Source of the DNA: Ilex aquifolium
Taxonomy: Eukaryota; Streptophyta; Magnoliopsida; Aquifoliales; Aquifoliaceae
Reading direction: 5' to 3'
NCBI GenBank assembly: GCA_951799425.1
Contig: OX637406.1
Span: 29,382,390 to 29,446,389, forward strand
Length of the DNA: 64,000 nucleotides
How positions within the stretch are numbered: the stretch's first letter is position 1; each line of letters begins with the position of its first letter. Shown here one piece after another: positions 1,251 through 64,000 of the stretch. The notes below the pieces were generated by a model. That model had not been told where the DNA came from. It saw only the letters and a program-made list of their open reading frames with translations, and searched no databases. A program made the translations under genes and the position numbers.

Positions 1251-2872
1251 TGCAATTAGCATAATATTGCACATCATTTACACATTTGCACCCCTTTTAG
1301 ACTTGTTTTTGTGGTAAATATGGGAGGAATTATAATATTTCTACAATTAATGAGGTTCCGGTATGTTTGCAGGCAAATAGTTGGAAATGACATGAGTTAA
1401 GCCCCCATTGTATTGCTTAAGGGGCTTGACGATGGCATCGAAGGTGAAAAGACCAAGATTTGAGCAAAACAAGTAAAAACCTACCAGTAGGTTTGTTCAT
1501 AAAACTACTGGTAGGTTTTGTCTACTGGAGTTGGTTCTACCGCAAACCTTCCGGAAAGTTTTGGCTACTGGAGTAAAACCTACCGGTAGGTTTGGCCATC
1601 AACCTACTGGTAGGTTTTGCTGAAAAATGCCTGAAGCCTACAACTCAAGTTTTGTCACTTGGGGGTCCCACCTATGATTCTCCCACTTGTCCCCTGACAT
1701 CCCTTACACACATACATGCCTCCCCACATCTAAGGTTGGAATTTGGAGGCCCAAGCATTTATGAGGAAGAGAGAGAGAAGAAGGAAGCCTGAGAAGTTGT
1801 AGGCTAGGCTTGTTCTAGCCTGCCCAAGCCATCAACTCAGCCTCCTATGGATGGGAATCCTGTCACACATGCTAGAGGACCTCCATGGACGAAAATGCAA
1901 GCTACTCTTTAGATTATTCAGCATTGTAGAGGAGAAGCTCAAGGAGGAAGACAGTTTTAGAGAGAGAAGTTAGATTTTTGCATTTCTTCTACCCATTTCA
2001 CTTGTAATCTTCTGTAAGACTCTATTAAGCTTCATTTATTGCACGTAATGTCATATCTTTCAAGTGTATTGCAAGTTTAGTGAAATATCTTTCAATCTAC
2101 CATTGTTACATTCAAATTTTACATTTCAAGTTTTTTAGTTGGGTATTAAATGCACTTATTTTTGTCGTTTCACTTCTCTTCACTTTAATTACAAGTTTAA
2201 CTTCCATTTCAATACCATGTCTCTTTACACATTGTTTGTCTTTGCATTTAACATGAGTAGCTAAGCTTTAAGTTGGCTAATACAAGGGAGATTTCTTCTT
2301 GGGCATGCTAAATCCACTATTCTTCATTCCTCCTCGTAGTGTGAGATGGTTTGGTTTGACTAGGTTGAGTGTGGACATGGTTTTAAGCTCTTGATACACC
2401 GTAGACTTGTCACGGGGTATGCTTGAGTCTACACTTTCATTTAGTCCCTCGCTTCCTACGAATCAATCGAACATCTATGTACCATTGGAAGAATGTTTTG
2501 AGTTGATTTGGCATTCCCATTGGAATGACCTCTTTGGATTAGCCAACACTTGTTTCCATTATTTTCTATCACAAACTTCACTCATCAAAACTCAAACTCA
2601 AAAGATTTTACACTTTTCCTTTTTAACCAAAATCACCTTCAACACAATTCACCTTCCTTCCCTGGGGAGACAATCTTGGAATACCAATTCCAAGTAAAAC
2701 ACGACACTCGAAAGTCTCTCTACGCTTGGGGAGCACTTTTGTACACACACACACACATATTCCATTTCTTGCATGATATTCGGGGGAGAGTGACACTCAC
2801 CTAACCGTATAAGCCACATACACATTACTGGAATCATGGTAAAAAATTAGGAACGACGGATTAAATCAAGCA
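1251..2872 (+). mobile_element. 3' LTR, Athila-like, CTACCGGTAG palindrome type
   Basis: 1622 bp, starts TG, ends CA (AAATCAAGCA). It aligns along its length with the element B LTR (24162-26013): shared ATAATATTGCA start, GGGGGTCCCACC block, CACTTGTAATCTTTTGTAAG-like block near 2000, TTGGCTAATCCAAGGGAGA-like block near 2275 and the closing TTAGGAAC...CAAGCA. No usable TSD, because the left end of the element is outside the window. Confidence 0.85.
1478..1618 (+). promoter_or_regulatory. Palindrome cluster CCTACCGGTAGG in LTR U3
   Basis: A perfect 18-bp palindrome AAACCTACCGGTAGGTTT sits at 1576-1593. Three near-palindromic relatives (CCTACCAGTAGG or CCTACTGGTAGG) occur at about 1479-1492, 1503-1517 and 1601-1618. 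A TATA-like TTACACACATACATG follows at about 1702, so the cluster is upstream of the presumed promoter, as in the other LTRs here. Confidence 0.7.
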
Positions 2873-3542
2873 TAAGGTAAACCACATTTGACACCCACAT
2901 ACATTCCAACACATTCCACAAACAAGGAAGGACGTAATCCAAGCAAAAACCAATAACAAGTTCAGTAAAAAATAAATTAATATGATACAAATTGTTATAT
3001 ACAAGTGCTTGGGGGTAAATATAACAAAATAAAGGTAACCAATATCCACTGAGTCCCACATGGTGGTGCCTTCCTCTGTCGCTTGTCGGTTGTCCCTCAT
3101 ATGGATCTTGCATCTCCTTTGTCGACAGGTGCGACAATCCAACATCTACACGATAATGAGTATGGTACCCATGACCCCTACTATAGTCTCCCCCTTTGGC
3201 CTCTCCAATGTGTAGGTATGGAGAGATTGGTGGTGGAATAACCGATGTGATTGTAGGTGTCACCAACGGTCCAAGTGTCACATATGAAGGGGAATGAGTG
3301 AATGAATAGGTGGTGTGGTGGTATGAGTCACCAATGGTATTGGTGTCGCTAACGAAAGGGCAATGGCTGGTGGAGTGTCATGATCAACACTAGGGGGACC
3401 ATATAAAGGTGGTGGGTCTGGATGTGATGAAGTGGAAACAGTATCCAAGCCTGATGAAGAGGTTTGTCTTGGGGCTCACACCGTCTGTCGTAACATATGT
3501 ATACCATACTGAGGTGCAAGAATCAGTGTTGCAACTTGTGGT
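2873..3542. other. Unassigned spacer between two LTRs
   Basis: No LTR, polypurine tract or recognisable retroelement domain seen. The minus-strand translation from about 3540 to 2860 is rich in Pro, Thr, Ser and His and contains a Cys/Arg-rich stretch near 3110-3145, but it is broken by several stops. It could be the tail of a decayed transposase or host ORF; I cannot identify it. Confidence 0.3.
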
Positions 3543-5205
3543 TGATTAACCCTTACAAGTGACATTTCAATATAAATTAAAAGGGTTAATTACTTGTAAT
3601 TCATGTTTAATTGCTTATAAATTATGTGATTTCAATTGTGTAGGGTAAATATGGAGGCTAATAAAAATTGCGGGGTACAAGGAGCAATTTAGTAAAGTTC
3701 GGGGGTAGCAAGGTGGAAGAGTCAACGAAAAGAGGGAAAAACAAAAGTTTCTAGAAGGCTGCCACCGTCCGGACACTACTACCACCGTCCGGATGCCACC
3801 ACTCATATGAGATTCCCAATTAATGGATGCAAAGTTTGGAATAAAATTTGTATAAGCTAAAAGTGATCACCATCTGGAAGCCCCTCTCCAAAGTGCAGAA
3901 TTTAGCCTGAAAATCTGATTCCAGAGAATTGCCACCATCCGGACGCCACTACCACTGTCTAGACGTTGTTCCCCGAAGCTACATTTCTTACTTTTGATTT
4001 CAAGCCTTGGAATTGGTCCTTTTTGCCACCCATTTCCATGCATCTCCCTTTATAAATATCCCTAGTCCTTAGAAGAAGATCATCACTTCGTGGAGGAATT
4101 TCTCTTCCAATGCTCTCTAGTTTTGTAATGTTTACATTTCCTATCTTCTACATTTCTTGCTTAGCTATCTTCTTCATTTGGAGGGTTGAACTTCTCTCAC
4201 CTATCTAGATCTTTTGAAGCCATAAAGGGTGTGTAGTATTTCATTCATTCTTTAGTGAAGAAAGAAGCATTGTATTTATCTTTGGTAGTTTGTATCTTCT
4301 TCATTTCGAGGGATGGACTTCTCTCATTTTTCTAGATTCCCCTGAAGCCATGAAGGGTGAGTAGTATTTCATTCACTCTTTAGTGAAGAAAGAGTTTGTA
4401 TTCATCTTTTGCAATTGTAGTTCTCTTTACTTAGATGGATGAGATTCTCTCACTTGTGGCCATGAAGAGTGAGTAATTTATCATCCACTCTTCAGTGAAG
4501 GGTGATAGATTTGTAATGCATTATTTGAATAATATATTTGTGCAATTTCTATTATGCTTAATTGTTTCATCTCACTTTTGAATGATTGAATGTATCTAGC
4601 AAAGCTAAAGTACTTTGTATAATTGTTTGATCACCTATAGACAAATTAAGTCTTATTATAGGTGATGCTTATGATTCACTACAAGTACCCAAGCTAGGCC
4701 TTCGTGACAATCTTTTAATCTTTAATTCTATTGTGTTTAACCATATGATTGATTAACTTATTAAGATGCACATTTTTTTTTAAATTATTTGATTGGTTAT
4801 AGACAGGTTAAGTCTTGGCATACTCAATGTTTATAACTTTGTGCATAATGTCGGAGCTAAACTCTCTAACATAAAATAAATCATCATCTTTCGGTTAACT
4901 TTCTATTGACACCGGGGTTAACTGAGCTCTCATTATTGCACAAACATTGCACTCAAACACTATGCACATTTTTGGATCCCCGAAATAAAGAGTGACTTTA
5001 TCTTTATTATCAAGAACTTTATATTTTCTCTAGCACACAACTCTTCACAACCACTCATTTCTAAAGTTTTCATTCATCTTTGTCTCTATTGATCTTCTAT
5101 TTAAAATACCAACATTAGTTACATGTGGATACAACCTTGGACTTAACCGAGTTATTACTACAACTTGACTACTTTTACTTGGGCGTGCGTACCTTTGTCA
5201 AGTCA
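3543..5205 (+). mobile_element. 5' LTR, Athila-type, CGTCCGGACG palindrome type
   Basis: 1663 bp, starts TGATTAACCCT, as does the Athila II LTR in its own direction (42411 downward), and ends TCAAGTCA. It is followed at once by a decayed tRNA-Asp primer site and then a gag remnant, which sets the plus orientation. Internal copies of a sentence-like block (ATGAAGGGTGAGTAGTATTTCATTCA near 4350 and variants near 4220 and 4450) form a local threefold repeat. Confidence 0.8.
3766..4058 (+). promoter_or_regulatory. LTR promoter: CGTCCGGACG palindrome pairs and TATA box
   Basis: Two pairs of sites, each pair 20 bp apart start to start: 3766 (CGTCCGGACA) with 3786 (CGTCCGGATG), and 3936 (CATCCGGACG) with 3956 (TGTCTAGACG). 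Most departures from CGTCCGGACG are C to T or G to A. TATAAATA is at 4051-4058, 86 bp past the last site. Confidence 0.7.
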
Positions 5206-5210
5206 AGTTT

Positions 5211-8095: not shown

Positions 8096-9059
8096 TTTAA
8101 AACCCGAAAAAATTTAAAATTTTATTGTGAAGGGAAAAATGATAATTAGCCATTGCAGTACGGATTGAAAACCCAAATTTTTCTAGAACTCGAGTCCTTG
8201 TTGAGATAGACCCTCACTTGGGTCCTTGTTGAGAAGAAGCTGGAATGTGGGTTTAAATTATATTTTTGTAAAACAATGGTGTAACTTGTTCTGAATTATA
8301 AATTGTGGGAAGAGAACATGTAATGAACTCTTTTGGATTGTTTTTTTGCATAATTGAATGTTATGTGAGTTTGGGCGAACTCGGAATGGGATTGGAGAGT
8401 TAAAGGTTAAAGTTAGAATGAATTTGAGGAAAATCTGGGCCCAGTTATTGATACCTAAGTGATTAAGTACCGGTACTACGTTGTTAGATGGGCTAGGTAC
8501 TAGTACTTTGACATACGGATACTAGTACCTGGATTCCAGAGGGCTTAGGTACCGGTACCAAGGCTTCAAGTACCAGTACTATGACATGTAGATACTGGTA
8601 CCTAGAAAACAGTAGGCTCAGGTACTGGTACCCCGTCACCTAGGTATTGGTACTTTGACAACTAGAAGGAACCTGGAAAAACAGAAGGCTCAAGTACCGT
8701 TACCACGTGAGAGAAGTACCAGTACCTCTTCCAAAATTTTTTAAAAAATTTAAATATAACTTTGCCAAGTCTTTGGGCCTTGAGCCTTCTTGTTTAAAGG
8801 AAGTAATTGGTTTAATATTAAGTGTAAATTGGTGGGGATTGGATCTTGGAATGGTCAAGTAATTGATATGTGCATAGGTTATGCGTTTGGGAGTGCTCCG
8901 GTACAAGGGAGACTCTGCCCAAACTCTGTGTTGGTTGCGATCTCGGTGAAGGGGAATGTGATGACGTGGTGTCGGGTTATGTGACATTCATGGGTACTTC
9001 CGCGGGTTGATGGGTGATCAATAGGTTGAGAAAGGACCCTCAGATTTTAGGGCGTCATA
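8096..9059 (+). mobile_element. Solo LTR, TGTAAAACCCG family, in a Tekay LTR
   Basis: 964 bp, starts TTTAAAACCCG and ends GGGCGTCATA (decayed TGTAAAACCCG...GGCGTCACA). Perfect 5-bp TSD TCAAT at 8091-8095 and 9060-9064. The last 100 bp match the end of the LTR at 45359-49924 (TACTTCCGCGGGTTGATGG near 8995). No internal region, so solo. Confidence 0.8.
8467..8715 (+). promoter_or_regulatory. Array of GTACCGGTAC-type palindromes
   Basis: At least nine sites of the form GTAC-NNN-GTAC or close variants: perfect GTACCGGTAC at 8467 and 8549, GTACTAGTAC at 8507, and variants at 8519, 8570, 8592, 8621, 8643 and about 8694-8715. Unlike the Athila and Tekay LTRs, I see no TATA box just downstream, so the role here is less clear. 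Confidence 0.65.
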
Positions 9060-9465: not shown

Positions 9466-10173
9466 TGATGGGGAGAATTTAGTCTCAACAAAGGGAAAGG
9501 TCCTAGTTGGCACTACCTTTAGAAATGTAACTGTTGGCTGACCTATTAGCAAGAAATGAAAGCTAGAGGAGTAATAAGCTTAGATAATCAGCTTTTCCCA
9601 ACCCGGTGGAAACTAGAAGCATGGTAAAGCTTATCCCAAATTTTTAGGAACCTTCTCTGCTAAAGACTGACTCAAATGGCAGATTTGTTTAGATATTGTA
9701 GGGAAGATAAGATGGTTAAGGGATAATGACAAGACCATACCCTCGACAAGCTTTATCCACATGATCAAACAGACTCCAAGCACTGATAGAACTCTGGATG
9801 GTTATCCCAACAAGGGATAAAGTCCATTGAAGCCAAGACTCCTCAACCGAAAGGAGATCTGGCAAATTCAAACAACTAGGAGAGCCTAGAGTCCACTTTC
9901 CCTTAGACACCTATCAAATTACTATAAAAAGGGACCTCTGAGGTAAGACCAAGGTAAGTACACTAAGCCCAATTAAATTGCTACACCTTAAAATTATGAG
10001 ATACTATCTTAAGCATCGGAGGGTTGACCCCGGAGCATCCCTCCAGTCTTTGACTTTCTTTTCAGGTAACACAATCGTTGAAAGCCTCTCTCAAAGCTCA
10101 AACAAATGTGTAGCTTGGCCTAGATCAACGTCAACAACTTTTAGTATAGTTGGATGCATTTTTTATTCCAATA
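9466..10173 (+). repeat. Tat 5' LTR
   Basis: 708 bp, starts TGATGGGGAGAATTTAGTC and ends TTATTCCAATA. Direct repeat of 13847-14551, for example GGGAAAGGTCCTAGTTGGCA and AAGGAGATCTGGCAAATTCAA. Confidence 0.85.
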
Positions 10174-10176
10174 GTT

Positions 10177-10194
10177 TGGCACCGTCTGTGGCAA
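10177..10194 (+). other. Tat primer binding site
   Basis: TGGCACCGTCTGTGGCAA, four bases after the LTR. It is close to the TGGCGCCGTCTGTGGGAA site of Tat/Ogre elements, which I recall as tRNA-Arg primed. Confidence 0.75.
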
Positions 10195-10405
10195 ACGACT
10201 TGATAACCAAAGTTCTTTCTCAGTTTTGCTATATGCCAGTGCATGGTGTCAACCAGAGCCATGAATGCCAATCAAAGACAACCTTACTAGAGATCAGCCA
10301 ACTCAAGGGATTGCTGGGGTTGAAATTCTAGATCTAGACCCTCCTCGCCTCAACAAACATCTGGAGGCCCAATAGATTCTCAACTTTGAAAGGAATATGG
10401 ATTAA

Positions 10406-11660
10406 ATGAACCAATCCATTGAAGGCATGAATCAACAAACCAAACAAATGCAACAAATTTTTCAAGGCCTTGTTGGTCCTCCAAATCAACAAGGAACTCG
10501 GGATCTTCGTTCTGAAGGGGCTCACCCCAACCATGAACCAAACTTGGTGGATGAGCATAGTCAAAATGATTCTAGCAACATCATGAAGAAGATGCCTCTT
10601 TGAATCAAAAGTTCAAGGAGGTGAATGATCGAATTGGAGATGTGTTGAACACCATGAAAGCTCAAGCTCCAGAAATAGTTGAAACACTAGTTCAAAGGCT
10701 TGAGTCACCTTTTTCTCATGATGTCATCAACTACCCTCACCCAGCCAAGTTCAAGATGTCGACCATCAAAACTTTCCATGGCAAGAAGGATCCTTTGGAT
10801 CATTTGGAAACTTATAAATCTCTCATGTTACTGCACAACATCCATGATGCCATTATGTGTAAAGCTTTCCTTACCACATTGAAGGGAACAACTCATCATT
10901 GGTTCAATAGGCTCTCTCCCGAGTCTATTGGATCCTTCCTAGAGCTTAGCAAATGCTTCATTTCCCATTTTATTGGATGAATGCCTCAAAAGAAACTCGC
11001 CAGTTCTCTCCTCAACATCCAAAAGATGAAAGAATAGACTCTTATGCAGTATGCAACAAGGTTTACGGAAGGGTCCCTATAGATAGGTGATGTTGATGAC
11101 GAGATGGATTTTATAGCCTTTATAATCGGACTTAGGTCTTCTAGGTTCTATTTCTCTGTGCAAAAAAATTCCCCCAAAACTATGGCAGAGCTCTTTTCCA
11201 TAGCAGAGAGCCATATGAATATGGAGGATACGGTTAATACGAAGAAAGGTGTGGAAGGCTCTACCTTTGAGAAGAAAAGAACGGGCCAGGAAAAGTCAGA
11301 CAAAACAAGTACTTCGAAGAAGGGGAAAGTTGATTGTGTCCAAGCTAGGGATAGGTTAGGCCCCCGCTTAACTGCAGCAATGGCCCAGTGTACACTCCAC
11401 TGAATGCTTTGGTTGAACAAGTCCTCTTTCAAGTGCAAAATGAAAACCTCCTGAAATGTGTTGGAAAGATCAAAACACCTCCTAACAAATGAGACAGAGA
11501 TAAGTATTTTCATTTTTACCTTGACCACGGGCATGATACCGAAGATTGTTTCACCCTTTGGGATCAGATTGATGATCTAATCTTGAAGGGCCACCTAGGA
11601 AGATTTGTAGAAAGGAACCACCGAGAAGAAAGAGTCCCTCAAGAGCCTCGAGAGCATTAA
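10406..11660 (+). pseudogene. gag: Tat gag (broken)
   Basis: A coiled, Gln-rich start (10406-10590) leads, after a frame change near 10595, into the gag core: PAKFKMSTIKTFHGKKDP, DHLETYKSLMLLHN, AFLTTLKGTTHHWFNRL and a SFLELSKCFISHFIG block ending at a TGA (10978-10980). The frame then resumes with stops at about 11036 and 11080 and continues to 11403. After another frame change, a [14 protein letters not shown] block (about 11515-11560) corresponds to the Tat zinc-finger-like CPFH..HGHDTEEC motif with its first Cys lost. Structural protein of the virus-like particle; inactive here. Confidence 0.8.
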
Positions 11661-11839
11661 TAGCCAATGGGGGAATTCAAGGTGATCTCTGGATGATTTG
11701 CTTCAGGGGGAAAGCAACTCGGCAAGGAAAGCTTATGCCTAGTGAGCTCGGGTAGAGAAGGAAGAAATCAACCTTGTTCAACCAAAAAAGGTGCCCTGTA
11801 GAAATTCTCCCACAACATTCACAGATGAAGATCTCAAGG

Positions 11840-11990
11840 GGATCTGAACTCCACATGCTGTTCCTATGGTGATCTCCATGGTTGTTTCCAACCATATTGT
11901 TCGAAGAGTTCTGGTAGATAGTGGCAGCTCTATAGATGTCATATTCTTTCATGTCGTCAATCAGTTGGGCATAAGAAAGTAAAATTTTTG
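11840..11990 (+). pseudogene. pol: Tat aspartic protease fragment
   Basis: Translation gives RRVLVDSGSSIDVIFFH (about 11900-11950), the retropepsin active site D-S-G-S-S followed by the usual hydrophobic stretch. Stops flank it (near 11843 and 11980). It would process Gag-Pol; here it is not in an open frame with gag or RT. Confidence 0.75.
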
Positions 11991-12082
11991 CCCTTTCTAG
12001 GCCCCTTTGGTAGGTTTCTCCAGAGAAAGAGCCTATCTAGTGGGGGCAATTTTAATTCCTATCTTCTTGCCAGCAAACACTC

Positions 12083-14667: not shown

Positions 14668-14726
<59 letters not shown>

Positions 14727-26013: not shown

Positions 26014-26017
26014 TTTT

Positions 26018-40510: not shown

Positions 40511-40516
40511 AAAACT

Positions 40517-51555: not shown

Positions 51556-51637
51556 CCTTTTTTTGAAAAAAATTTAAAAAACTCACTATCCGATCCTTTA
51601 ATGTCTGCCAGTCACAAATGCGGTTATGGATTGTTTC

Positions 51638-51673
51638 ATCCCCCTCAACTTATATTTAACATTGTCCTCAATG
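51638..51673 (-). other. CATTGAGGACAATG hairpin plus purine tract after integrase
   Basis: Minus-strand CATTGAGGACAATG (51660-51673) followed by an ATAAGTTGAGGGGGAT tract (51638-51653). Confidence 0.65.
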
Positions 51674-51809
51674 TATAATATCATAAATCAAAATTTAAAG
51701 TCTTTGTTAATAAGGTTTGGAAATGAAACAAATCCATCACTTAAAACCCTAATCTGCAAAACAAACAATGGAACAATTAGTACTACTATTTATAAACAAA
51801 TACGCATAA

Positions 51810-52720: not shown

Positions 52721-52859
52721 AAAGGAATGGTACATGTGACCAAGTATTTGACTATATCTACATACCATGGTACCTCAGTTATTGCAACTAATGGCTCATC
52801 AGGAAAATTTTCTTTGATCGGTATTGACTCCTCTTTTGTATCATAATTCAACCTTAGAA

Positions 52860-53349
52860 GATGATCGGCTACCACATTTTCAACTCCCTTCTTGTCTTTG
52901 ATAATAAGATCAAATTCTTGAAGTAACAGTATCCATCGGAGTAACGTGGCTTAGCATCCTTCTTTGTAAGCAAAGTACTTCAAAGCTGCATGATCAGTAA
53001 ACACAACAATTGAGGATCTAACTAAATATGATCTGAATTTATTTAAAGCAAATACTACATCAAGAAATTCTTTTTCTGTTTTAGAATAATTCATCAGTGC
53101 ATCATTCAAAGTTTTACTTGTGCAGTAGATCACATAAGGTCGCTTATCTTTTCTTTGTCCTAAGATAGCTCCTACAGTATAATCACTAGCATCACACATT
53201 AATTCAAAAGATAAGGACCAATCAGGAGGTTGCATAATTGGTTCAGAAATAAGCATGCTCTTAAGTTTATCAAATGTTATTTGATATGCTTCATTCCAAT
53301 CAAATGGTACATCTTGACATTGAAGATTACACATTGGTCTGGATATCAA
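52860..53349 (-). pseudogene. pol: Athila II RNase H
   Basis: RPMCNLQCQDVPFDW, PIMQPPDWSLSFELMCDASD, LGQRKDKRPYVIYCTSKTL, NYSKTEKEFLDVVFALNKF and the VVFTDHAALKYF block (catalytic Asp) are all present; broken near 52951. Confidence 0.85.
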
Positions 53350-53390
53350 ACTAAAGTCTTTAATAAATCTTCTATAGAATTTTGCATGAC

Positions 53391-54291
53391 CTAAGAAGGA
53401 TAAAACATCTTTACAGTCTTTGGTGGAGACAGATTTCCTATCAAATCAATTTTTGACTTATCAACTTCAATTCCCTCAGCAGAAACAACATAACCTAAGA
53501 CAATACCTTGTGTAACCATGAAATGACGTTTTTCCCAATTAAAAACAAGATTTGTCTCCTTACACCGAGTAAGGACTTTTTCAAGATTTTCTAGACACAA
53601 TACAAATGAATCACCATATGCAGAAAAATCATCCACAAAGACTTCTAAAAATCGCTCCACCATGTCACTGAAAATATTCAACATACATCGCTGAAAAGTA
53701 GCTGGAGCATTACACAATCCAAATGGCATTCTTTTATAAGAAAAAATGTCAAAAGGACATATAAAAGTGGTTTTTTTTCCTGGTCATCAATTGCTATTTC
53801 AATTTAGTTGTAGCTGGAGTACACGTCCAAAAAATAATAAAATGCATGTCCAGCTATCTTTTCCAGAAGTTGGTCTGGGAAGGGTAGAGGAAAATAGTCT
53901 TTTCTGGTAAGAGAATTTAGTTTTCGATAGTCGATACACATATGCCAACCAGTGACTGTACGCTTAGGGACTAATTCATTTTCTTGATTTTTACTACCGT
54001 AACACAAGACTTTTTGGGTACTACTTGTGTTGGGTTGGCCCATTTACTATCAGATATAGGGTATATAATCTCAACATCTAACAATTTAAGCACTTCAGCC
54101 CGAACAACTTCCTTAAGATATGGATTTAACCTATATTGTGGTTGTCGAGATGGTTTAGATTCTTCTTCCAAGTATATGCAATGAGTACAGAGAAGAGGAC
54201 TTATTCCTTTAATATCGACTATTGTCCAACCAATTGCACTTTGTTGATTTTTGTTGACTCTTATCAATTGAATTTCTTGAGACTCTGACAA
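53391..54291 (-). pseudogene. pol: Athila II reverse transcriptase
   Basis: Starts with the GISPLLCTHCIYLEEESK and RLNPYLKEVVRAE blocks, then SKWANPTQVVPKKS, GWHMCIDYRKLN, FPLPFPDQLLEKI, FYYFLDVYS; then MPFGLCNAPATFQRCM and FVDDFSAYG (catalytic Val-Asp-Asp intact, about 53625), GYVVSAEGIEVDKSKI. Frameshifts near 53990 and 53800. Confidence 0.88.
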
Positions 54292-54599
54292 CTTTTAAGA
54301 TATCACCACTAGATAAGTTTGATCCTCCCCCAAGAAGACATATTTCAAGTCAATCGGAAGAGATTTCAACTCTGGCTTGGAAGCCATGACACTAGACTCA
54401 ACAGACTTGGTTACATTGTGTAATAACTCTTTAAATTTAGAACCCATGTTCTAACAGTGGATATATCTACAATAGACTCAACATTATTTACAAACTCTAA
54501 CAATTCATGCGACTCTTTTTTATTACAAGCTTTTTTGAATAGACTCTGAGTTAATGACCCAATGCAATTTACTTCATGCAAATCTTACTCCTCCTTAGG

Positions 54600-55010
54600 T
54601 TGCTAAGAAATGTCAAACACATTTAATTCCAATGCCATGCTACCAAATGAAATTTTCATAATTTCATTCATACAATTAATCAATGCATTTGATGTAGTAA
54701 GGAACGAACATCCCAAAATGATAGGAATTTTTGTGGAGACATGAAAAACTGGTTGAGTATCCAAAACAATAAAATCCATAGGAAAATAAAACTTCTCAAC
54801 TTGAACAAGCACATCCTCAACAACTCCTCGTTGAATTTTCACAGATCGGTCAGTCAACTACAATGTGATATTTGTGGGTTTCAACTCTCCCAATCCTAAC
54901 TTCTTATAGATTGTAAACGGGAGTAAATTGACACTGGCTCCAAGATCAAGCAAAGCTTCCTCAATTCTGAAGTTTCCAATTATGCATGAACTGTGGGACT
55001 CCTATGATCT
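54600..55010 (-). pseudogene. pol: Athila II aspartic protease region
   Basis: The active site D-L-G-A-S region reads on the minus strand near 54930-54960 (ASVNLLPF). It is followed by LTDRSVKIQRGVVEDVLVQV, the IPIILGCSFLTTSNALINC block and FGSMALELNVFDIS. Several stops. Confidence 0.8.
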
Positions 55011-55468
55011 TTGTACTTTAGAGGGGCCTTGTGTTGAATGATACCACTAGCCTGTTTAGTTAAAAATGTTCTTTTTTGTACATTGATCCTTCTTTTACTG
55101 TGCAAAGGTCTTTCAAAAACTTGGCATATGATGGGACTTTCTTGATTGCATCCAACAGGGGGATGTTAATCTTCACTTGCTTAAATAACTCAAAAATTTC
55201 AGCATAATTGTTCAATGGTTGAGGTTTCTTAACTTGTTGAAGAAAAGGTAAAGGAATATGATTTGATTTGTCTTTTTCGTCAAGCAACTTTGTTTCCTTT
55301 TAAACAATTGGTTCAAACTCAACTAGTTCATTAACAGGGATTGACTCGGTTACTGGCTCAAGAGTTTTGGAATTGATGGTCTTGTCAATCACTTTATCAC
55401 TCCTCAGTGTGGTAATTTCTTGGACTTGGCTCGAAGAAGGTTCAAAAGACACGACATTAGTCTGGTTT
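55011..55468 (-). pseudogene. gag: Athila II gag C-terminal part
   Basis: TNVVSFEPSSSQVQEITTLRS, KVIDKTI and the KINIPLLDAIKKVPSYAKFLKDL linker to protease. The upstream part is at 63253-63322 beyond the inserted Tekay element; TSD GGTTT. Confidence 0.7.
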
Positions 55469-57764
55469 TGTAACGCCCCAAAACACACCCTGGACGGCAT
55501 TACATACTAAAACCATTTACATCATGAGAGCACTAATATCATCCATAAATAAATTAAACTTCATTCATCATCCATAAAATATTTACATCATTATCCAAAA
55601 GAATATGCCCAACCATGGCATTTACATCTCAAAAATTAATTAAAGTAGCACAGCGGAATAGCAAAAGAAACTAGACCTTACAGTGTCCAAAAGAATAACC
55701 TAGTCTAGTACAAAAGAAGCTACATCTCTACATATCCACCTCGGGATCTAGGTTCCCCTCGAGTGGAGCCTCCCAATGCCCTGACTCGTCGATGCCAAGA
55801 TCCTCCACTAGCACCAAATCTGAAAAATGTAATTTGTAGAGGATGAGCACGAAGCTCTGTAGCAAAATCTTCCCAACTCAAACAAGGTTTATAAAAATAT
55901 AAAACGGGTCGGTCACATTTCAAAATAATATATATCAATTTTTGAAGGAAAAACAGGACAGTTTAAAGAGATCTCAAGTTTAAGCCATAACAACAATCAA
56001 GTAAAAGAATAAATTAAATTGAACAACAATACACCGTGTCCAAAGTTGGGCCAATTCGGAAGGGCGTCTTCCGATGCATTGTCCCATACCAATGCACCGG
56101 CCAAGACGTTCCAATTCATCATCCCATGTAAATTGGTTCATCCCCGTACTATGTATGTTAATTCCTTCTCATGAATCTACCCAACGATTATACCTAGTCC
56201 ACCAATCACAATCACATTCACAAGCATTTTAGGAAAGGGCGTCTACCATCCCAATGGCAGTGACGAATCCCTTCCCAGGAAAAGTATACTATCCCTTGTT
56301 CGAACTCCAGTGAACGATAGTGGTTTCATTACCAAATGACAACCCACTACAAGTGCTAGGAAACCATCTCACCCCCACTGGGGTAGACTAACCTCTAACA
56401 CTCTACGGCATCTCTCGAAGGCAATCCAAGTCCCTCACAACAACCATACAATTGAGGAAACCAAAATATTCTCAATTCATCAACATTTCAAGGAATTACC
56501 AAATTCCACAATTTCTAATATAATGTTTCATAATAAGATGGAAGAAAATGAGCAAGAGATCATCATAAGTACATTTTGGTGTACAATATCAAACACTAAA
56601 GTTTTGAAAGCAATACCAAGGAAAAATAGAGGGAAAAGTCCCTTTCTCTTTAAAACCAAGGTTTGAAGATGAAAAAGAGAAATTTAATAGTTACCCAACC
56701 ATCACAATGTTCAAAACATGGCATTTATTTCAAGAGGAACAAGAATCATGTATTTCTTATCATGTATATAAGGATGAGAGTGAAAAACATATATATATAT
56801 ACATAAACCCTAGCCAATATGTAAGAGATTAGGAAGAAATCCCCTACCTCAACCAAGTATCTCTAGCAACCCAAGCTTTAAAGACTCCATTTTCCCCTTT
56901 TTCTTGCTCCCTTGCTACTTTCTCTTTTGGTTCTAAGAGGTTTGAATGAGGGTGAAGTGAAAGTATAGAAGAGAGAATGGGTGGAGAAGTGGGTTCTTGA
57001 AAAACTAGGGTTTGATTTTTATTCAAGGTGTAAATCTCTCTTGATTTTTTTGTGTTTTTCTCTTCCTCTCTAATGGTTTCTAGGGTTTCAAGTGGTGTAA
57101 TGAGGCTTAAGGAGGCGGCATTAAGTATTTATAGTGGAAGAAATGGAGAAAGAACCGAAGTCGGATCGGGCTGGGCTTTATCGGGCGTACCGGTACGCGT
57201 ACCGGTACGGTTTAGCTACTGGAGTTCGGCGTACCGGTACGTGTACCGGTACGGTTTGACTGCCAGATTTTTGTTTCAACTTCCAGTGCGATTTTGACCT
57301 ATTTAGAGGTCGAATTGGAAAAGTTTTATTAGATACACTTTTTTAGCCCTAGATGTCTAATATCTACTGTAAAAATTTGAGATCAATTGAATATAAGGAT
57401 AAAAAGTTATGACCAAAATACTAGAAGGTGTCCCAACTCCTTTTTACCCAAATTTTCGCTAAAGTGTATTTTAACTCCGGGACACTTCCTAACTTCCAAT
57501 ACATCCATATTACCACTCCTAATGTTTTTCGACCTTCCGGATTCAATGGAATCATTATTTTGACCTACAAACTTTTAGAAACTTGTCTAATCACCCTTTC
57601 CAAGTTTAAACATCTTCGACACGTAACTTCCCAATCAAATTGTCTCCATAGCATTTATTTCTACGGTTTATTCTTATGTCACTACATATATCTACATCTT
57701 TACAAATATTATTTACTATATATATATCTCTATAAATATATAAAAGAAAATTCGGGGTGTTACA
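55469..57764 (-). repeat. Tekay III 3' LTR
   Basis: 2296 bp; in element direction TGTAACACCCC to GGGGCGTTACA. By eye it differs from 60951-63247 at about two dozen places. Confidence 0.93.
57126..57252 (-). promoter_or_regulatory. Tekay III 3' LTR promoter: four GTACCGGTAC sites and TATA box
   Basis: Minus-strand TATAAATA at 57126-57133. Perfect sites at 57187, 57199, 57231 and 57243: two pairs 12 bp apart, 44 bp between pairs. The nearest site is 54 bp from the TATA box. Confidence 0.9.
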
Positions 57765-57780
57765 ATCCACCCCCCTTAAA
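57765..57780 (-). other. Tekay III polypurine tract
   Basis: Minus-strand TTTAAGGGGGGTGGAT directly before the LTR. Confidence 0.9.
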
Positions 57781-57805
57781 GAAAGTTTCGTCCTCGAAAC
57801 TTACC

Positions 57806-58340
57806 TCAAGTAGTGAACAGATATGGATACTTCTCCCGCATTTCTTGCTCCGGTTTCCATGTAGCTTCTTCCACCCCATGATGTCGCCACAAAACCTTCA
57901 CGAGTCGGATGACTTTGTTGCGGAGCACCTTTTCCTTGGCATCAGGAATCTCCACCGGTTGTTCTTCATATGTTGCTCCATCTTGAATTTCAATATCCTC
58001 CAAATCCACGACTGGAGTTGCATCCGATTGACACGTCCTCAACATCGACATGTGAAACATGCCATGTACTCCGGATAGCTGGGCTGGTAGTCGAAGTTGA
58101 TACGCGGCATTGCCTACCACTTTGATCACTTCAAACGGTCCGGTATATCTTGGCGCTAACTTCTCCTTCTTGCCGAATCGAAACACGCCCTTCTTGGGTG
58201 ACACCTTGAGAAACATGTAATCTCCCATTTTGAATTCCAAGGATCTTTGTCTGTGGTCCGCATAGCTCTTCTGTCTACTTTGCGCCGTGCGTAGCCTCTC
58301 TCGGATGAGTTGAATCTTCTCCGTAGTTTCCCCATTGTAG
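57806..58340 (-). pseudogene. pol: Tekay III integrase C-terminus and chromodomain
   Basis: Minus strand. Frame from about 58340 (EKIQLIRERLRTAQSRQKSYAD) through GDYMFLKVSPKKGVFRFGKKEKLAPRYTGPFEV (the GPF/Y module), AYQLRLPAQLSGVHGMFHMSMLR and EEQPVEIPDAKEKVLRNK. The chromodomain follows (IRLVKVLWRHH, EEATWKPEQEMREKYPYLF) and ends with a stop at 57806-57808. The segment is open and well preserved from 58240 down, unlike the rest of pol, which is deleted. The chromodomain of Tekay/Del integrases is thought to guide insertion into heterochromatin. Confidence 0.9.
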
Positions 58341-58544
58341 TCCTTACTCCGTTAGTTCGTTGCGTACTCTGATATAAATTACAATCCACCAAAGATTACA
58401 GTTGAAACCTAACCAGACTTGTCCTCCCATTTTAGCTTCCAAATCCATATACATTTTTTTTTTAACGAAATAATTTAAGAAAAATTAACATAATATCATC
58501 GAAAATACCATTTTAGCGGTCACTACAAATCACTAGAGTTTTGA
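58341..58544. other. Deletion joint and AT-rich spacer
   Basis: Between the integrase remnant and the minisatellite. No domain seen. Confidence 0.5.
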
Positions 58545-59615
58545 ATTCATGAGCAAATAAATAATCAAGCTTTAGAATCAAGAATAAATGGCTATCAAGC
58601 TTGGAAATCAAGAACAAAAGAACAAGCAAGGTTTGAAATTAATAACAAATGAATCTCAAGTTTTTGGAATCCAAAATAAAGGAACAATCAAGTCTCGAAT
58701 TTCATAACAAACCCATATCAAGCTTTGGAATCAAAATAAGAAACAATCAAAGCTTGAAATCAAGAACAAAGTAACAATCGAGTCTTGGAGTCAATAACAG
58801 ATGCATATCAAGCTTTGTAACCAAGAACTAAAGAGTATCAAGTTTTGAATTCAAGGACAAGGAGAAATCAGATATTGAAATCAAGAGCAATTGAATTTCA
58901 AGTCTTGAAATCAAGAACCAATGAATATCAAGTATTGAATATCAAGAATAAATGAATCACAAGGGTTGGAATCAATAACAAATGAATATTAAATTTGGCT
59001 ATCAAGAACCAATGGATCATCAAGCCTGGGGAAATTAAAAACAAAGGAACAACCAAGTCTTGAAATCAAGAACTAAAGGATGTCAAATATTGAATATCAA
59101 GAATACATGAATTACAATAGTTAGAATCAATCAAATGAATACCAAATTTGGCTATCAAGAGCAAATGAATATTAAGCTTGGAAATCAAGAATAAAAGCGT
59201 ATCAAGCTTGAAAGTCATGAACAAAGGAGAAATTAAGATTTAACGGAACAATCATGTATGAAAATCAATAACAAACGACTATCAAGGTGGGAAATCAAGA
59301 ACAAAGGATTATGAAGCTTAGAAATCAAGACCAAAAGAACACTCAAGTCTTGGAACCAAGAATAAAGAATATCAAGTATTGAATATTGAAAATAATTGAA
59401 TCACAAGGGTAGAATCAATAACAAACGAATATCAAATTTAGATACCAAGAACAAATGAATCATTAAGCTTAGGAAATTAAGGACAAGGAAACAATTAAGT
59501 CTCGAGATCAATAACAACGGATATCAAGCTTGGAATCAGAGATAAAGTAACAATCATATATGGGAATTGATAACGAACGACTATCAAGGTTTGAAATCAA
59601 TGACAAAGGCAAGAT
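58545..59615. repeat. Degenerate 28-33 bp minisatellite, about 35 units
   Basis: Units follow the pattern AATATCAAGCTTGGAAATCA followed by AGAACAAATG, with heavy drift. Blocks of four or five units recur in the same order starting near 58921, 59093 and 59370 (TATTGAATATCAAGAATA, then AATCACAAGGGTTGGAATCA, then AAATTTGGCTATCAAGA), a higher-order structure. No open frame. It occupies the place of RT, RNase H and the integrase core. Confidence 0.9.
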
Positions 59616-59909
59616 AAAGAGAAAACACCTCTCCCTTGAAAACTAGGATTTCAAGGGCATACCAAAAGGATTTGGTGGTCACCCACCCATAACATAGCTT
59701 AGAACAAATAATATTTAAGTTTGGGAATCAAGAACAAAGGAGAAATCAAGAGAAAAACACATCTCCTTTGTAAACTAGGGTTTGAAGGCATAAGAAAAGA
59801 TTTAGGGTTTACCCCACCATAATATATTTTGGGACAAGGTAGTATTATCCAGAATGGCAAGATATGATGATTCCATAGCAAGTAGATATAAATTAGAGTC
59901 AAAGATTAC
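59616..59909. other. Spacer between minisatellite and protease remnant
   Basis: Contains two related copies (about 59612-59690 and 59745-59830) of a block with AAAACACCTCTCCCTTGAAA and a GGTTTACCCCACCATAA-like end. No coding domain. Confidence 0.5.
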
Positions 59910-60800
59910 CTATAAATAAACCCTACTGGTATCTCCTTGTTTTCCCGTAGGCAAGTTAACATATACAGTAAGTTCTATTTCCTCGAAACCCAATCCCAAT
60001 TCCACAGCGTACACAGTACGTAGAAAAAAATAAGTCGCATAGAAATCCAATATTATTCGGGCCCAAAAATTGTAGAGAAGAGCAATACCTTCCACAACGG
60101 CGTTGGAGACATCTTCCTCCGGTTGAGTCAAAACAAAAACCCTTCCTTGATTGGCGCCGCCAGGGGCATGAGCTTGTAACGGTCTCTGTGGTGGTAATGA
60201 CTGTCGTAGTGGTGGCCTGTTTGCATTCACTCGCCCAGTTGCTTGGTTGGTCTTGGTAGAAAGCAATGGACAATTATCTATGAAGTGCCCTACACCTACA
60301 CAGGCAAAGCATCGGCGTGCATCCGTGTCTACTCTCTTTGGTACGCCTCCTGCTCCTCGAGCTATCTGAGGTCTCTACTGTGCTGGCATTTGTAGAGGTG
60401 GCTTGTTTACTGGTACTTGCTCGGTTGCTTGTTTGGTCCTTGGGGGAAACGAGGGGCATCTATGTTTGAAGTGTCCATACTCTCCGCATGCAAAGCATTG
60501 GCGCGGGTCCATGCCTGCTCTCCTCTGAGTAACTCCATCTTCTCCAACTGTCTGAAGTCTTTGGTCAACAGCGTCCACGTCCACGTCCACGTCCACGTCC
60601 ACGTCCACGTCCACGTCCACGTCCACGTCCACGTTCACGAGATCTTGTATTCTCGAATTCAAAGTGTAACCAGCTTCTCGCGGATGGAAGGCCTCAAATC
60701 TTGTTCAAAGCGTTTAGCCCTCCTTGCCTCAGTGACCATAAACTTGATTACGTAGCGAGACAACTCATCGAATCCGAACAAATAATTAACCCTTAACTAA
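59910..60800 (-). pseudogene. gag: Tekay III gag C-terminus and protease start
   Basis: Minus strand. Gag tail (YVIKFMVTEARRAKRFEQDL, RPSIREKL), a Val-Asp repeat, then two zinc knuckles C-x2-C-x4-H-x4-C (CFACGEYGHFKHRC near 60480, CFACVGVGHFIDNC near 60300), each followed by a similar Lys/Gln/Thr/Asn/Pro-rich linker, so the knuckle region is duplicated. The protease start (GRVFVLTQPEEDVSNAVVEG) is recognisable. Its active site reads D-F-Y-A-T-Y (about 60030-60047) where the family has D-S-G-A-T-H, so it is dead. The N-terminal part of gag is missing. Confidence 0.85.
60573..60638 (-). repeat. Hexanucleotide array (GTCCAC)10 plus GTTCAC
   Basis: Ten perfect GTCCAC units (60573-60632) and one variant; on the coding strand GTGGAC, giving about ten Val-Asp pairs just before the first zinc knuckle of gag. 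Confidence 0.97.
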
Positions 60801-60928
60801 ATATACCACAAATCTAACCTATCTGATAAGCACATAACTTCAAACAAATGCAAGCCTACGGTTCCTTCAACCTAGTCCTACCTTTCCAGTGGTAATACAT
60901 AACCTACAGCTCCCATGTAAGACCTAAA

Positions 60929-60946
60929 GCATAAGCTCTGATACCA
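60929..60946 (-). other. Tekay III primer binding site (tRNA-iMet)
   Basis: Minus-strand TGGTATCAGAGCTTATGC, four bases from the LTR end. Confidence 0.93.
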
Positions 60947-60950
60947 AATC

Positions 60951-63247
60951 TGTAACGCCCCAAAACACACCCTGGACGACATTACATACTAAAACCATTT
61001 ACATCATGAGAGCACTAATATCATTCATAAATAAATTAAACTTCATTCATCATCCATAAAATATTTACATCATTATCCAAAAGAATATGTCCAACCATGG
61101 CATTTATATCTCAAAAATTAATTAAAGTAGCACAGCGGAATAGCAAAAGAAACTAGACCTTACAGTGTCCAAAAGAATAACCTAGTCTAGTACAAAAGAA
61201 GCTACATCTCTACATATCCACCTCGGGATCTAGGTTCCCCTCGAGTGGAGCCTCCCAATGCCCTGACTCGTCGATGCCAAGATCCTCCTCTAGCACCAAA
61301 TCTGAAAAATGTAATTTGTAGAGGATGAGCACGAAGCTCTGTAGCAAAATCTTCCCAACTCAAACAAGGTTTATAAAAATATAAAACGGGTCGGTCACAT
61401 TTCGAAAATAATATATATCAATTTTTGAAGGAAAAATAGGACAGTTTAAAGAGATCTCAAGTTTAAGCCATAACAACAATCAAGTAAAAGAATAAATTAA
61501 ATTGAACAACAATACACCGTGTCCAAAGTTGGGCCAATTCGGAAGGGCGTCTTCCGATGCATTGTCCCATACCAATGCACCGGCCAAGACGTTCCAATTC
61601 ATCATCCCATGTAAATTGGTTCATCCCCGTACTATGTATGTTAATTCCTTCTCATGAATCTACCCAACGATTATACCTAGTCCACCAATCACAATCACAT
61701 TCACAAGCATTTTAGGAAAGGGCGTCTACCATCCCAATGGCAGTGACGAATCCCTTCCCAGGAAAAGTATACTATCCCTTGTTCGAACTCCAGTGAACGA
61801 TAGTGGTTTCATTACCAAATGACAACCCACTACAAGTGCTAGGAAACCATCTCACCCCCACTGGGGTAGACTAACCTCTAACACTATACGGCATCTCTCG
61901 AAGGCAATCCAAGTCCCTCACAACAACCATACAATTGAGGAAACCAAAATATTCTCAATTCATCAACATTTCAAGGAATTACCAAATTCCACAATTTCTA
62001 ATATAATGTTTCATAATAAGATGGAAGAAAATGAGCAAGAGATCATCATAAGTACATTTTGGTGTACAATATCAAACACTAAAGTTTTGAAAGCAATACC
62101 AAGGAAAAATAGAGGGAAAAGTCCCTTTCTCTTTAAAACCAAGGTTTGAAGATGAAAAAGAGAAATTTAATAGTTACCCAACCATCACAATGTTCAAAAC
62201 ATGGCATTTATTTCAAGAGGAACAAGAATCATGTATTTCTTATCATGTATATAAGTATGAGAGTGAAAAACATATATATATACATAAACCCTAGCCTCAA
62301 TGTAAGAGATTAGGAAGAAATCCCCTACCTCAACCAAGTATCTCTAGCAACCCAAGCTTTAAAGACTCCCTTTTTCCCTTTTTCTTGCTCCCTTGCTACT
62401 TTCTCTTTTGGTTCTAAGAGGTTTGAGTGAGGGTGAAGTGAAAGTATAGAAGAGAGAATGGGTGGAGAAGTGGGTTCTTGAAAAACTAGGGTTTGATTTT
62501 TATTCAAGGTGTAAATCTCTCTTGATTTTTTTGTGTTTTTCTCTTCCTCTCTAATGGTTTCTAGGGTTTCAAGTGGTGTAATGAGGCTTAAGGAGGCGGC
62601 ATTAAGTATTTATAGTGGAAGAAATGGAGAAAGACCCGAAGTCGGATCGGGCGGGGCTTTATCGGGCGTACCGGTACGCGTACCGGTACGGTTTAGCTAC
62701 TGGAGTTCGGCGTACCGGTACGCGTACCGGTACGGTTTGACTGCCAGATTTTTGTTTCAACTTCCAGTGCGATTTTGACCCATTTAGAGGTCGAATTGGA
62801 AAAGTTTTATTAGATACACTTTTTTAGCCCTAGATATCTACTATCTACTGTAAAAATTTGAGATCAATTGGATATAAGGATAAAAAGTTATGACCAAAAT
62901 ACTAGAAGGTGTCCCAACTCCTTTTTACCCAAATTTTCGCTAAAGTGTATTTTAACTCCGGGACACTTCCTAACTTCCAATACATCCATATTACCACTCC
63001 CAATGTTTTTCGACCTTCCGGATTCAATGGAATCATTATTTTGACCTACAAACTTTTAGAAACTTGTCTAATCACCCTTTCCAAGTTTAAACATCTTCGA
63101 CACGTAACTTCCCAATCAAATTGTCTCCATAGCATTTATTTCTACGGTTTATTCTTATGTCACTACATATATCTACATCTTTACAAATATTATTTACTAT
63201 ATATATATATCTCTATAAATATATAAAAGAAAATTCGGGGTGTTACA
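60951..63247 (-). repeat. Tekay III 5' LTR
   Basis: 2297 bp; direct repeat of 55469-57764. Confidence 0.93.
62607..62733 (-). promoter_or_regulatory. Tekay III 5' LTR promoter: four GTACCGGTAC sites and TATA box
   Basis: TATAAATA on the minus strand at 62607-62614. Perfect sites at 62668, 62680, 62712 and 62724, same pitches and same 54-bp distance to TATA as in the other LTR. Confidence 0.9.
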
Positions 63248-63252
63248 GGTTT

Positions 63253-63322
63253 TGACCCTGTGGAGGTTTAGGTTGACATGAGAATTTTTCCCTTCTCCAT
63301 TATGCTCAAAGGCTGGGTCAAC
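63253..63322 (-). pseudogene. gag: Athila II gag fragment between two insertions
   Basis: Minus-strand translation gives AQPLSIMEKGKFSCQPKPPQ-like sequence that joins in frame with 55463 downward. Bounded by Tekay III and by an LTR starting at 63323. Confidence 0.65.
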
Positions 63323-64000
63323 TGATGTGCGCATAATATTTCATATTTAATGGCCTCATTACATGCATTTTAACTCAACTTTGCATTTAATTAGTTAGAG
63401 TTCGTCAAATTTGTGAATAATATGAAAATTTTATTTTTACAGGTAATCTTAGAGTAATTGATGGCTTTCAGAACCCTACAACTATGTGTGGATGAGTGGT
63501 GAAGAGATGGACACATTACATGAGGATTTGGAGGCTTAAAAGTGAAAGAAATCAAGAAGGTATCAGTACTTGGTAACATAGGTTCCAGAACCCACACAAT
63601 TTGGTATTGGTACCTTGTTATTCCCCATTGTTGACCATGATCCACTTCGAATTTGAAAAAGTGAAAAACATCAAAGTTGTAGATCTGGATGTCCTATATG
63701 TTGTGTCAAAATTTCAGCTCAATCGGAAGGTGGAATCAAAAGTTATGACAAATTTATGAAAACTAATCCTGAGCTTGCATCCCTTTTACGACCTACCGAT
63801 AGAACCTTAAAACCTAGAAAAACCTACTGGAAGTTTTCTACCGGTAGGTTTTTGACGTTCTACCGGTAGAAATTGCCCAAAAATCCCAAACACTTCCCCC
63901 ACATGACTCCACCTACTTCGGAGACCCACCTCTTGACCTCCAAACCATACCCTGACATAATTGACACCCCATGATGCTCTTCTAACCCCAAAAGTCAGCT
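63323..64000 (+). mobile_element. Athila-like LTR (start), CTACCGGTAG type, runs off the window
   Basis: Starts TGATGTGCGCATAATATTTC and aligns with the first 650 bp of the element B LTR (GGAGGCTTAAAAGTGAAAGA, GTTGTAGATCTGGATGTC). Left flank TCAAC would be the TSD. Perfect CTACCGGTAG palindromes at 63838-63847 and 63860-63869. Confidence 0.8.

Follow-up and report, generated by a model that had tools for sequence, protein, structure and literature searches.

A stretch of 64,000 nt of Ilex aquifolium DNA (contig OX637406.1, positions 29,382,390 to 29,446,389; the window in the following) contains long terminal repeat (LTR) retrotransposons in which four short palindromic words, CGTTCGAACG, GTACCGGTAC, CTACCGGTAG and CGTCCGGACG, occur in clusters. 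The question raised by this locus is what these words do and what reads them. A first-pass annotation had placed them in LTRs, at positions confirmed by a word search of the window, and had proposed family-specific sites of dimeric, methylation-sensitive regulators comparable to the VANC proteins of VANDAL transposons. The present analysis revealed a second location. In several divergent lineages, the word of the LTR also precedes an element-encoded extra gene, an additional open reading frame (aORF) whose product matches PF20167. The comparison with VANC is strengthened by this gene, which the annotation had not seen, but it does not extend to GTACCGGTAC, for which the arrangement was not found.

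Perfect copies in the window number 19 for CGTTCGAACG, 17 for GTACCGGTAC, three for CTACCGGTAG and one for CGTCCGGACG, besides decayed copies. In 100 Markov-3 shuffles, the largest count of any single CG-centred 10-bp palindrome was three, so that the excess of the two commoner words over shuffled sequence is real. In total, 46 CG-centred 10-bp palindromes were observed against 6.6 expected (30 Markov-2 shuffles, maximum 14). Forty of them, each a copy of one of the four words, fall into 15 clusters that make up 3.9% of the window; as the clusters were drawn around these words, this split is descriptive and not a test. The region 9471-19663, occupied by other elements, contains no CG-centred 10-bp palindrome. 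The observed/expected ratio of CpG is 1.11 inside the clusters and 0.48 window-wide, and CCGG is present in three of the words, CGTTCGAACG being without it. The words also recur in the 800-Mb genome. Paired CGTTCGAACG gave 7903 matches (control 0), and paired GTACCGGTAC with 2-3 bp between the sites, the commoner pair, 16,102 (control 1). Viral contigs contained neither paired CGTTCGAACG nor relatives of the integrase or reverse transcriptase (RT) pieces. Six viral-contig stretches with paired GTACCGGTAC were dropped, being GT-rich or simple-repeat by eye and lying on contigs with long open frames.

The two elements with a recognizable aORF promoter in the window, X and Y, are broken, of Athila type and both on the minus strand. 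In both, the word at the aORF promoter is that of the LTR, CGTCCGGACG in X and CGTTCGAACG in Y, and the X LTR and X aORF promoter are identical at 22 of 24 bp around the site. Two sets of loci from elsewhere in the genome extend this observation. The first consists of twenty 10-kb loci picked for holding paired CGTTCGAACG and is therefore biased. An aORF is present in seven, six of which have CGTTCGAACG at its promoter and again 2.2-2.7 kb downstream. In all seven aORF promoters, TATA follows the last promoter site by 14 bp; L011 has a single such site, and the figure for L013 is that of the cluster table, a stray decayed copy lying further down. The second set comprises 11 loci from 150 scored PF20167 matches (6661 first-look candidates), spread over open-frame lengths and not random. 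In five of these, one perfect palindromic 10-mer is common to the stretch at the aORF promoter and the one downstream, and no other is shared besides (AT)n. It is CGTCCGGACG in L036 and L037 (seven copies at the aORF promoter and four downstream in each) and in L040 (one and one), and CGCCTAGGCG, part of GCGCCTAGGCGC, in L032 and L033. TATA stands 13 bp past the promoter sites in L036 and L037. These two loci are nearly identical to each other, and the same is true of L038 and L039; the number of independent lineages is therefore smaller than that of loci. At least 13 PF20167 matches on many contigs tie at 111.5 bits (E 1.8e-29, 377-amino-acid open frame); this group is a recently amplified aORF lineage, and L036 and L037 belong to it or adjoin it in score.

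Words located 5-35 bp upstream of TATAAA were also counted genome-wide, with a reversed control. CGTCCGGACG was found 792 times (control 4) and CTACCGGTAG 104 times (control 14). Among 100 listed matches for CGTCCGGACG, the gap is 10-13 bp in 50, 32 bp in 26, 35 bp in 16 and different in eight; at 35 bp, the word is in most cases a further site that precedes one of the 10-13-bp type by 23 bp. Near-identical CGTCCGGACG-N32-TATAAA stretches occur in pairs 4457-4459 bp apart, 12 pairs among the 100 matches listed (e.g. C1:2958992 and C1:2963450), as would be expected for LTR pairs of a young, short and perhaps non-autonomous family.

The features of the window are given below, with F labels for LTR families and their copies, PPT for polypurine tract, PBS for primer binding site and TSD for target site duplication.

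2-799, plus strand: aORF remnant of the F1a element; weak PF20167 match in 2-367 (E 2.1e-6, under the Pfam cut-off)
1481-1613, plus strand: F1a LTR cluster, CTACCGGTAG (one perfect, three decayed), downstream of a PPT-like tract at 1243-1252
3766-3965, plus strand: F2a Athila-type LTR cluster, CGTCCGGACG type, decayed copies only; TATA 106 bp past the last counted site (3936-3945)
8467-8725, minus strand: F5b LTR-like cluster, GTACCGGTAC type (two perfect, the rest decayed)
19664-21374, minus strand: 3' LTR of Athila-type element Y (F2b), inner end approximate
20909-21190, minus strand: decayed CGTTCGAACG cluster of the Y 3' LTR; TATA 117 bp downstream
23547-24161, minus strand: C-terminal part of the Y aORF, PF20167 (E 7.1e-23 for 23547-24194)
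24162-32970, plus strand: F1 element with two LTRs and short interior, inserted in the Y aORF; TSD CTATC; its 3' LTR contains solo LTR F2c
24622-24689, plus strand: F1b LTR cluster, GTACCGGTAC (three perfect, one decayed)
29636-29690, plus strand: F1c LTR cluster, GTACCGGTAC (two perfect, one decayed)
30540-32489, minus strand: solo Athila-type LTR F2c; TSD ATCCT
31943-32305, minus strand: F2c cluster, nine perfect CGTTCGAACG; TATA 97 bp downstream
32971-33122, minus strand: N-terminal part of the Y aORF, ATG at 33122; alone without Pfam match
33354-33643, minus strand: Y aORF-promoter cluster, CGTTCGAACG (six perfect, two decayed); TATAATA 14 bp downstream
33989-40409, minus strand: gag-pol region of Y, Athila-type, broken
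40512-42411, minus strand: mosaic LTR F2d, U3 continuous with element X; 40543-41043 94% like the Y LTR; PBS-like TGGTGCCGTTGCC at 40510-40498
42101-42202, minus strand: X LTR cluster, CGTCCGGACG (one perfect plus degenerate copies); TATA 111 bp downstream
45040-45348, minus strand: C-terminal part of the X aORF
46566-48759, plus strand: solo Tekay/Del-like LTR F3a; TSD CATGG (same TSD with start at 46489)
46944-47073, plus strand: F3a cluster, CGTTCGAACG (four perfect, one decayed); TATA 54 bp downstream
49568-49641, minus strand: F5a LTR-like cluster, GTACCGGTAC type (two perfect, one decayed), 32-bp pitch, within the split X aORF
49928-50526, minus strand: 5' part of the X aORF, ATG at 50526; PF20167-like in 50345-49928; frame broken
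50744-50770, minus strand: X aORF-promoter pair, CGTCCGGACG type, one change each, pitch 17 bp; TATAAAA 12 bp downstream
51214-55416, minus strand: pol region of X, Athila-type, broken
55469-63247, minus strand: Tekay/Del-like F3 element; LTRs 60951-63247 and 55469-57764; initiator methionine tRNA (iMet) PBS at 60946; TSD GGTTT
57187-57252, minus strand: F3b cluster, four GTACCGGTAC; TATA 54 bp downstream
62668-62733, minus strand: F3c cluster, four GTACCGGTAC; TATA 54 bp downstream
63793-63869, plus strand: F1d LTR cluster, CTACCGGTAG (two perfect, one decayed)

The elements are LTR retrotransposons by PBS, PPT-like tracts, RT and TSDs. The RT piece 36767-37300 has a match to RVT_1 and none to a copia-type RT model, an Athila-like PBS is present, and F3 carries SH3_Tf2-1 and the iMet PBS; these features mark Ty3/gypsy lineages. 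The names Athila and Tekay/Del were assigned from domains together with PBS and LTR-end features. The split X aORF encloses an F5 LTR-like stretch and the solo LTR F3a; no TG..CA ends with TSD were found at the F5 boundaries. The mosaic LTR 40512-42411 probably arose by recombination between neighbouring elements. The interiors of F1 and F3 have neither a PF20167-like match nor a CG-centred 10-bp palindrome. The F1 interior contains about three 72-bp tandem repeats coding CCHC zinc knuckles (26186-26405), and the F3 element long degenerate tandem repeats with units of about 30 bp (58528-59609).

All clusters listed in the annotation exist, but four others had been missed (33354-33643, 50744-50770, 49568-49641 and 8467-8725), and two of those listed, 20909-21190 and 3766-3965, contain decayed copies without a perfect palindrome. 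The fixed pitch described there holds for close pairs of CGTTCGAACG (17-19 bp) and in part for GTACCGGTAC (12-13 bp) and CGTCCGGACG (20 bp), but GTACCGGTAC also occurs at 32 bp and, in F5b, at 21-22, 30 and 50-52 bp, and CGTCCGGACG also at 17 bp. The central YCGR is common to the four words. As a universal property it had to be rejected, since GCGCCTAGGCGC in L032 and L033 lacks it.

The symmetry of the words is strict. Half-site hybrids among the four were not found in the window, and paired asymmetric CGTTCGGACG gave 10 matches genome-wide with five spacings and both strands summed, compared to the 7903 of paired symmetric CGTTCGAACG counted at one spacing. As symmetry is kept when the word changes, the arrays appear to switch symmetrically, as would be expected for sites read by a homodimer, and the dimeric sites proposed earlier thereby gain indirect support from sequence patterns. 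Among 23 single-substitution variants in the clusters, 21 are CpG transitions, which indicates methylation of the decayed sites, though not yet a methylation-sensitive reader as proposed in the annotation.

Distances to TATA, judged by a set of TATA words, are also regular in the LTRs. The last site precedes TATA by 97-117 bp in four F2 LTRs and by exactly 54 bp in three F3 LTRs, even though F3a carries CGTTCGAACG and F3b and F3c carry GTACCGGTAC; both values fall within the 54-120 bp annotated previously for Athila and Tekay LTRs. The first set of loci contains 27 clusters with at least two sites. Six are located at aORF promoters, with TATA at 14 bp. For 14, in loci with F2-like LTR matches, TATA is found at 63-118 bp (10 at 94-96 bp), and for five, in or beside F3a-like sequence (L025-L028), at 53-54 bp; on the opposite strand, the L028 cluster has an additional TATA word at 110 bp. 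Two are without TATA. LTR palindromes thus stand at a set distance from TATA, mostly 94-118 bp in Athila-type and 53-54 bp in Tekay-type LTRs. No TATA word was detected within 300 bp of the F1a, F1b and F1c clusters or in the 131 bp that separate F1d from the window end; the only candidate in F5a is a weak TATTTATA at 89 bp, and F5b has none of the words searched. A further sequence, CACTCGAGTG, is present as a single copy in nine of the 20 loci (L014, L015, L017-L020 and three more) and is possibly a single-copy site of the F2-type LTR.

Comparisons of the LTRs with each other showed that words are replaced. The palindrome stretches of F3a and F3b have an identity of 0.484, close to the shuffled mean of 0.467 (20 shuffles), between flanks with 0.769 and 0.721. 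F1b and F1d also carry different words. Only their upstream flank (0.831) is clearly alignable; values near chance were obtained for the module (0.554, shuffled maximum 0.672) as well as for the downstream part (0.538, shuffled maximum 0.535). The diversification proposed in the annotation is supported in part, as alignable LTRs differ in their word. Strict family-specificity had to be rejected, as different words are found in the same slot of F3a and F3b/c, and words are common to LTRs of the unrelated Athila and Tekay types. With the palindromes masked, the F3a cassette still matches the Y aORF-promoter cassette with a score of 34.5 (maximum of 200 shuffles, 22). Judging from this match, at least one transfer of a cassette between unrelated families appears to have taken place. 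A masked match between F1a and F3b is shorter (25, shuffled maximum 20.5) and weak given 78 comparisons.

How could these arrangements be explained? The reading preferred here, at somewhat less than even confidence, is that a symmetric dimer controls LTR and aORF through the palindromes and that the aORF product itself is this reader, in a circuit resembling that of VANC. The palindromes would be operator-like sites, and the aORF product, as a nuclear protein, would bind the word of its own lineage. Once bound, it would activate its own promoter and LTR or protect them from silencing, like VANC in VANDAL. Elements without aORF, the Tekay-type F3 and the short F1, would have taken cassettes and would use the regulator in trans. 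The more specific proposal, that the PF20167 product is a lineage-specific regulator which counters silencing through the palindrome at its own promoter and LTR and co-evolves with its word, that other families steal cassettes and that ENV-like genes of Sireviruses act likewise by analogy, is advanced more tentatively.

In a Pfam scan (E up to 10), four of five aORF proteins or pieces matched PF20167, the N-terminal piece being without match. An aORF-encoded reader is favoured by the recurrence of one word at aORF promoter and LTR, the TATA spacing at aORF promoters, the excess of CGTCCGGACG before TATAAA, the symmetry of the words, their replacement in the F3 slot, the masked match of the F3a cassette and the nuclear location predicted for a sunflower Athila aORF product, and also by the divergence of the aORFs. 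The CGTCCGGACG aORFs of L036 and L040 are 37-45% identical to CGTTCGAACG aORFs, and a single base per half-site separates these two words; for aORFs that carry other words, identity to both groups is 15-30%. Between X and Y, aORF pieces are 33-44% and most pol pieces 52-69% identical; one weak, overlapping protease match has 37%, and gag and the aORF N-terminus gave no match.

A number of observations weigh against an aORF-encoded reader. No DNA-binding fold was recognized, the AlphaFold model (predicted local distance difference test score of 40) being too poor for a fold search, and no sequence match was obtained in the PDB. L036 and L040 share their word but are only 34% identical and form no clade, each being nearer to the CGTTCGAACG lineage, so that word and protein do not track simply. 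The aORFs of L032 and L034 are 83% identical, with the perfect word in L032 only. Covariation of word and aORF may be explained as well by common descent of the whole element as by co-evolution. In the second set of loci, six of 11 have no shared perfect 10-mer. L034 shares an imperfect GCGC-N4-GCGC dyad only, L035 and L043 share nothing between aORF-promoter and downstream stretch, and L038, L039 and L041 have TGATCGATCA upstream of the aORF only. Close downstream of the promoter sites of L032, L033 and L040, none of the TATA words searched was found. Of two advance predictions, one failed: TGATCGATCA was expected in the L038 LTR, and the next 5 kb held one mismatched copy only. For the other, CTACCGGTAG at the F1a aORF promoter, no cluster of the four words was detected in 5 kb to the left of the window, but the frame breaks before the aORF start and the promoter was not reached. 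In L021 of the first set, CGTTCGAACG precedes the aORF and CTACCGGTAG lies downstream (positions 713 and 801), and the locus has no match to the F2, F3 or F1b LTRs of the window. Half of the listed CGTCCGGACG-TATAAA matches are off the aORF-type distance, those at 32 bp coming nearly all from one LTR-like family. GTACCGGTAC is not enriched before TATAAA (57, control 41), and thus no aORF promoter is known for it. Finally, comparable boxes exist in Sireviruses, members of another superfamily. Together, L036/L040 and the TATA results slightly weaken the case for a self-encoded, lineage-specific regulator. The mismatch of words in L021 could reflect an LTR swap or another element. The L038/L039/L041 lineage has aORFs of 382-385 amino acids, and a perfect TGATCGATCA is missing from the roughly 8 kb downstream of L038; this lineage is possibly not of the standard Athila kind.

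A family of dimeric host factors, possibly sensitive to CpG methylation, is a nearly as likely reader of the words, given GTACCGGTAC without aORF-promoter signature and similar boxes in Sireviruses. Several lineages would then, each independently, recruit or exchange sites for different paralogues of this family, and LTR and aORF promoters would share a word through their need for the same factor. Paired GTACCGGTAC is abundant genome-wide yet has no such signature, and in the window it is carried by F3 and F1, which lack a PF20167-like gene. Words common to unrelated Athila- and Tekay-type LTRs point to a host factor as well, as does the low identity of the L036 and L040 aORFs in spite of the same word. 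The very strict words of 10-12 bp and whole arrays switching symmetrically argue in the other direction. Words differ widely among distant aORF lineages, and one cassette at least that Athila- and Tekay-type elements have in common seems to be a copy rather than a product of convergence. Moreover, this collection of words is not known from any plant transcription factor, and a literature search for the LBD family motif gave no match. In both monocots and eudicots, according to PMC2829016, palindromes, most of which have CGG-CCG as their core, are found in Sireviruses (Ty1/copia) with or without ENV, which again favours a host factor.

Hairpins between palindromes could instead act as RNA or DNA structures, as a signal or as a source of small interfering RNAs for silencing, without a protein reader, a possibility discussed for Sirevirus LTRs of maize. 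This is rather improbable. Modules from 10 of the 15 clusters were folded, and all of them exceeded their dinucleotide shuffles in stability (z -2.5 to -9.0); a small-RNA excess on palindromic Sirevirus LTR regions is reported in PMC10760457, citing Bousios 2016. Arrays of perfect palindromes always fold well, however, and the z-scores follow from the array. Complementarity would suffice for hairpins, with no need for one exact word 12-14, 54 or about 95 bp before TATA, and the LTR sites lie upstream of TATA. Least probable of all are passive tandem duplications spread by copying or recombination without function, for although tandem units are visible (33406-33503 is repeated at 33531-33627) and at least one cassette is common to two families, the palindrome remains perfect while spacers vary, the sharp spacing to TATA recurs across families, the word switches at one spot between conserved F3 flanks, and the same word stands at two separate promoters of one element.

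Sequence-specific self-regulation by the aORF product, the preferred reading, can be compared with several known systems. The function of extra 3' genes in plant LTR retrotransposons is described as an open question (PMC7264820, PMC11728184), and it has been suggested that LTR elements may encode factors shaping their own methylation (PMC12844716). In open-licence PMC papers, no report was found on these palindromes in Athila or Tekay or on their link to the aORF, and searches for the exact words returned only apparent primers and unrelated text. Within the range of these searches, what is new is the presence of the words in Athila- and Tekay-type elements, the fixed TATA spacing at aORF promoters in part of the lineages, the replacement of words in alignable LTRs and their sharing across unrelated families. 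With the word at both the LTR and the extra-gene promoter in several divergent lineages, binding of the product to its own word is directly testable. If it proved true, self-regulation of the type known from VANDAL DNA transposons would extend to a large class of plant retrotransposons, cassette theft would amount to competition, and plant env-like genes, including by analogy those of Sireviruses with repeated-motif (RM) boxes, would gain a non-envelope function.

A close parallel is provided by the RM boxes of Sireviruses (Bousios et al. 2010, PMC2829016). There, too, element-specific, palindromic, CpG-rich boxes in high copy number precede the LTR TATA, with extra copies before the 3' ENV-like gene. 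Boxes upstream of the LTR TATA are likewise seen in F2 and F3; in F1, the stretch searched held no TATA. In the four RM elements that lack ENV, linker copies are absent. Here, X and Y have boxes at the aORF, and the F1 and F3 interiors contain neither gene nor boxes; L034, L035 and L043, however, have an aORF without a shared perfect word. As to the CGG-CCG core, CCGG is present in three of the words described here but not in CGTTCGAACG, and the Sirevirus Tnd-1 lacks the core as well. RM clusters form CpG islands; for the clusters of the window, the CpG ratio of 1.11 given above can be set beside the 0.48 of the whole stretch. The RM boxes belong to Ty1/copia elements and were called Sirevirus-specific relative to the classic retrotransposons compared in that paper, whereas the words described here occur in Athila- and Tekay-type elements, are common to unrelated families and change from one alignable LTR to another. 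A TATA follows the aORF cluster at a fixed distance in some of the elements, whereas for Sireviruses an internal promoter was not established with certainty in that paper.

Two further systems resemble the aORF itself. In sunflower, Athila elements have an extra gene of the same family between pol and the 3' LTR, with the Transposase_32 domain (PF20167) and a predicted nuclear product; the excerpt of PMC11728184 describes neither regulatory words nor an aORF promoter. Gene23 of the maize element Grande (cited in PMC7264820) is likewise an extra 3' gene with its own promoter and a nuclear protein, but it is antisense, and shared words are not described in that excerpt.

VANDAL elements, finally, are Mutator-like DNA transposons and not LTR retrotransposons. 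VANC contains DUF1985, whereas the Pfam scan of the five aORF proteins or pieces gave PF20167 only. The words of VANC21 and VANC6 (YAGTATTAY and AGTTGTCC/AC) are non-palindromic and without CG, and binding and demethylation were demonstrated in that system, with binding of element-specific words by VANC21 (Hosaka et al. 2017, PMC5735166), whereas the holly words are described here from sequence. Common to both are short words clustered in non-coding parts, their divergence between related elements and an extra protein encoded by the host element. According to the same paper, the word of VANC6 is also carried by an unrelated element, AT9TSD1.

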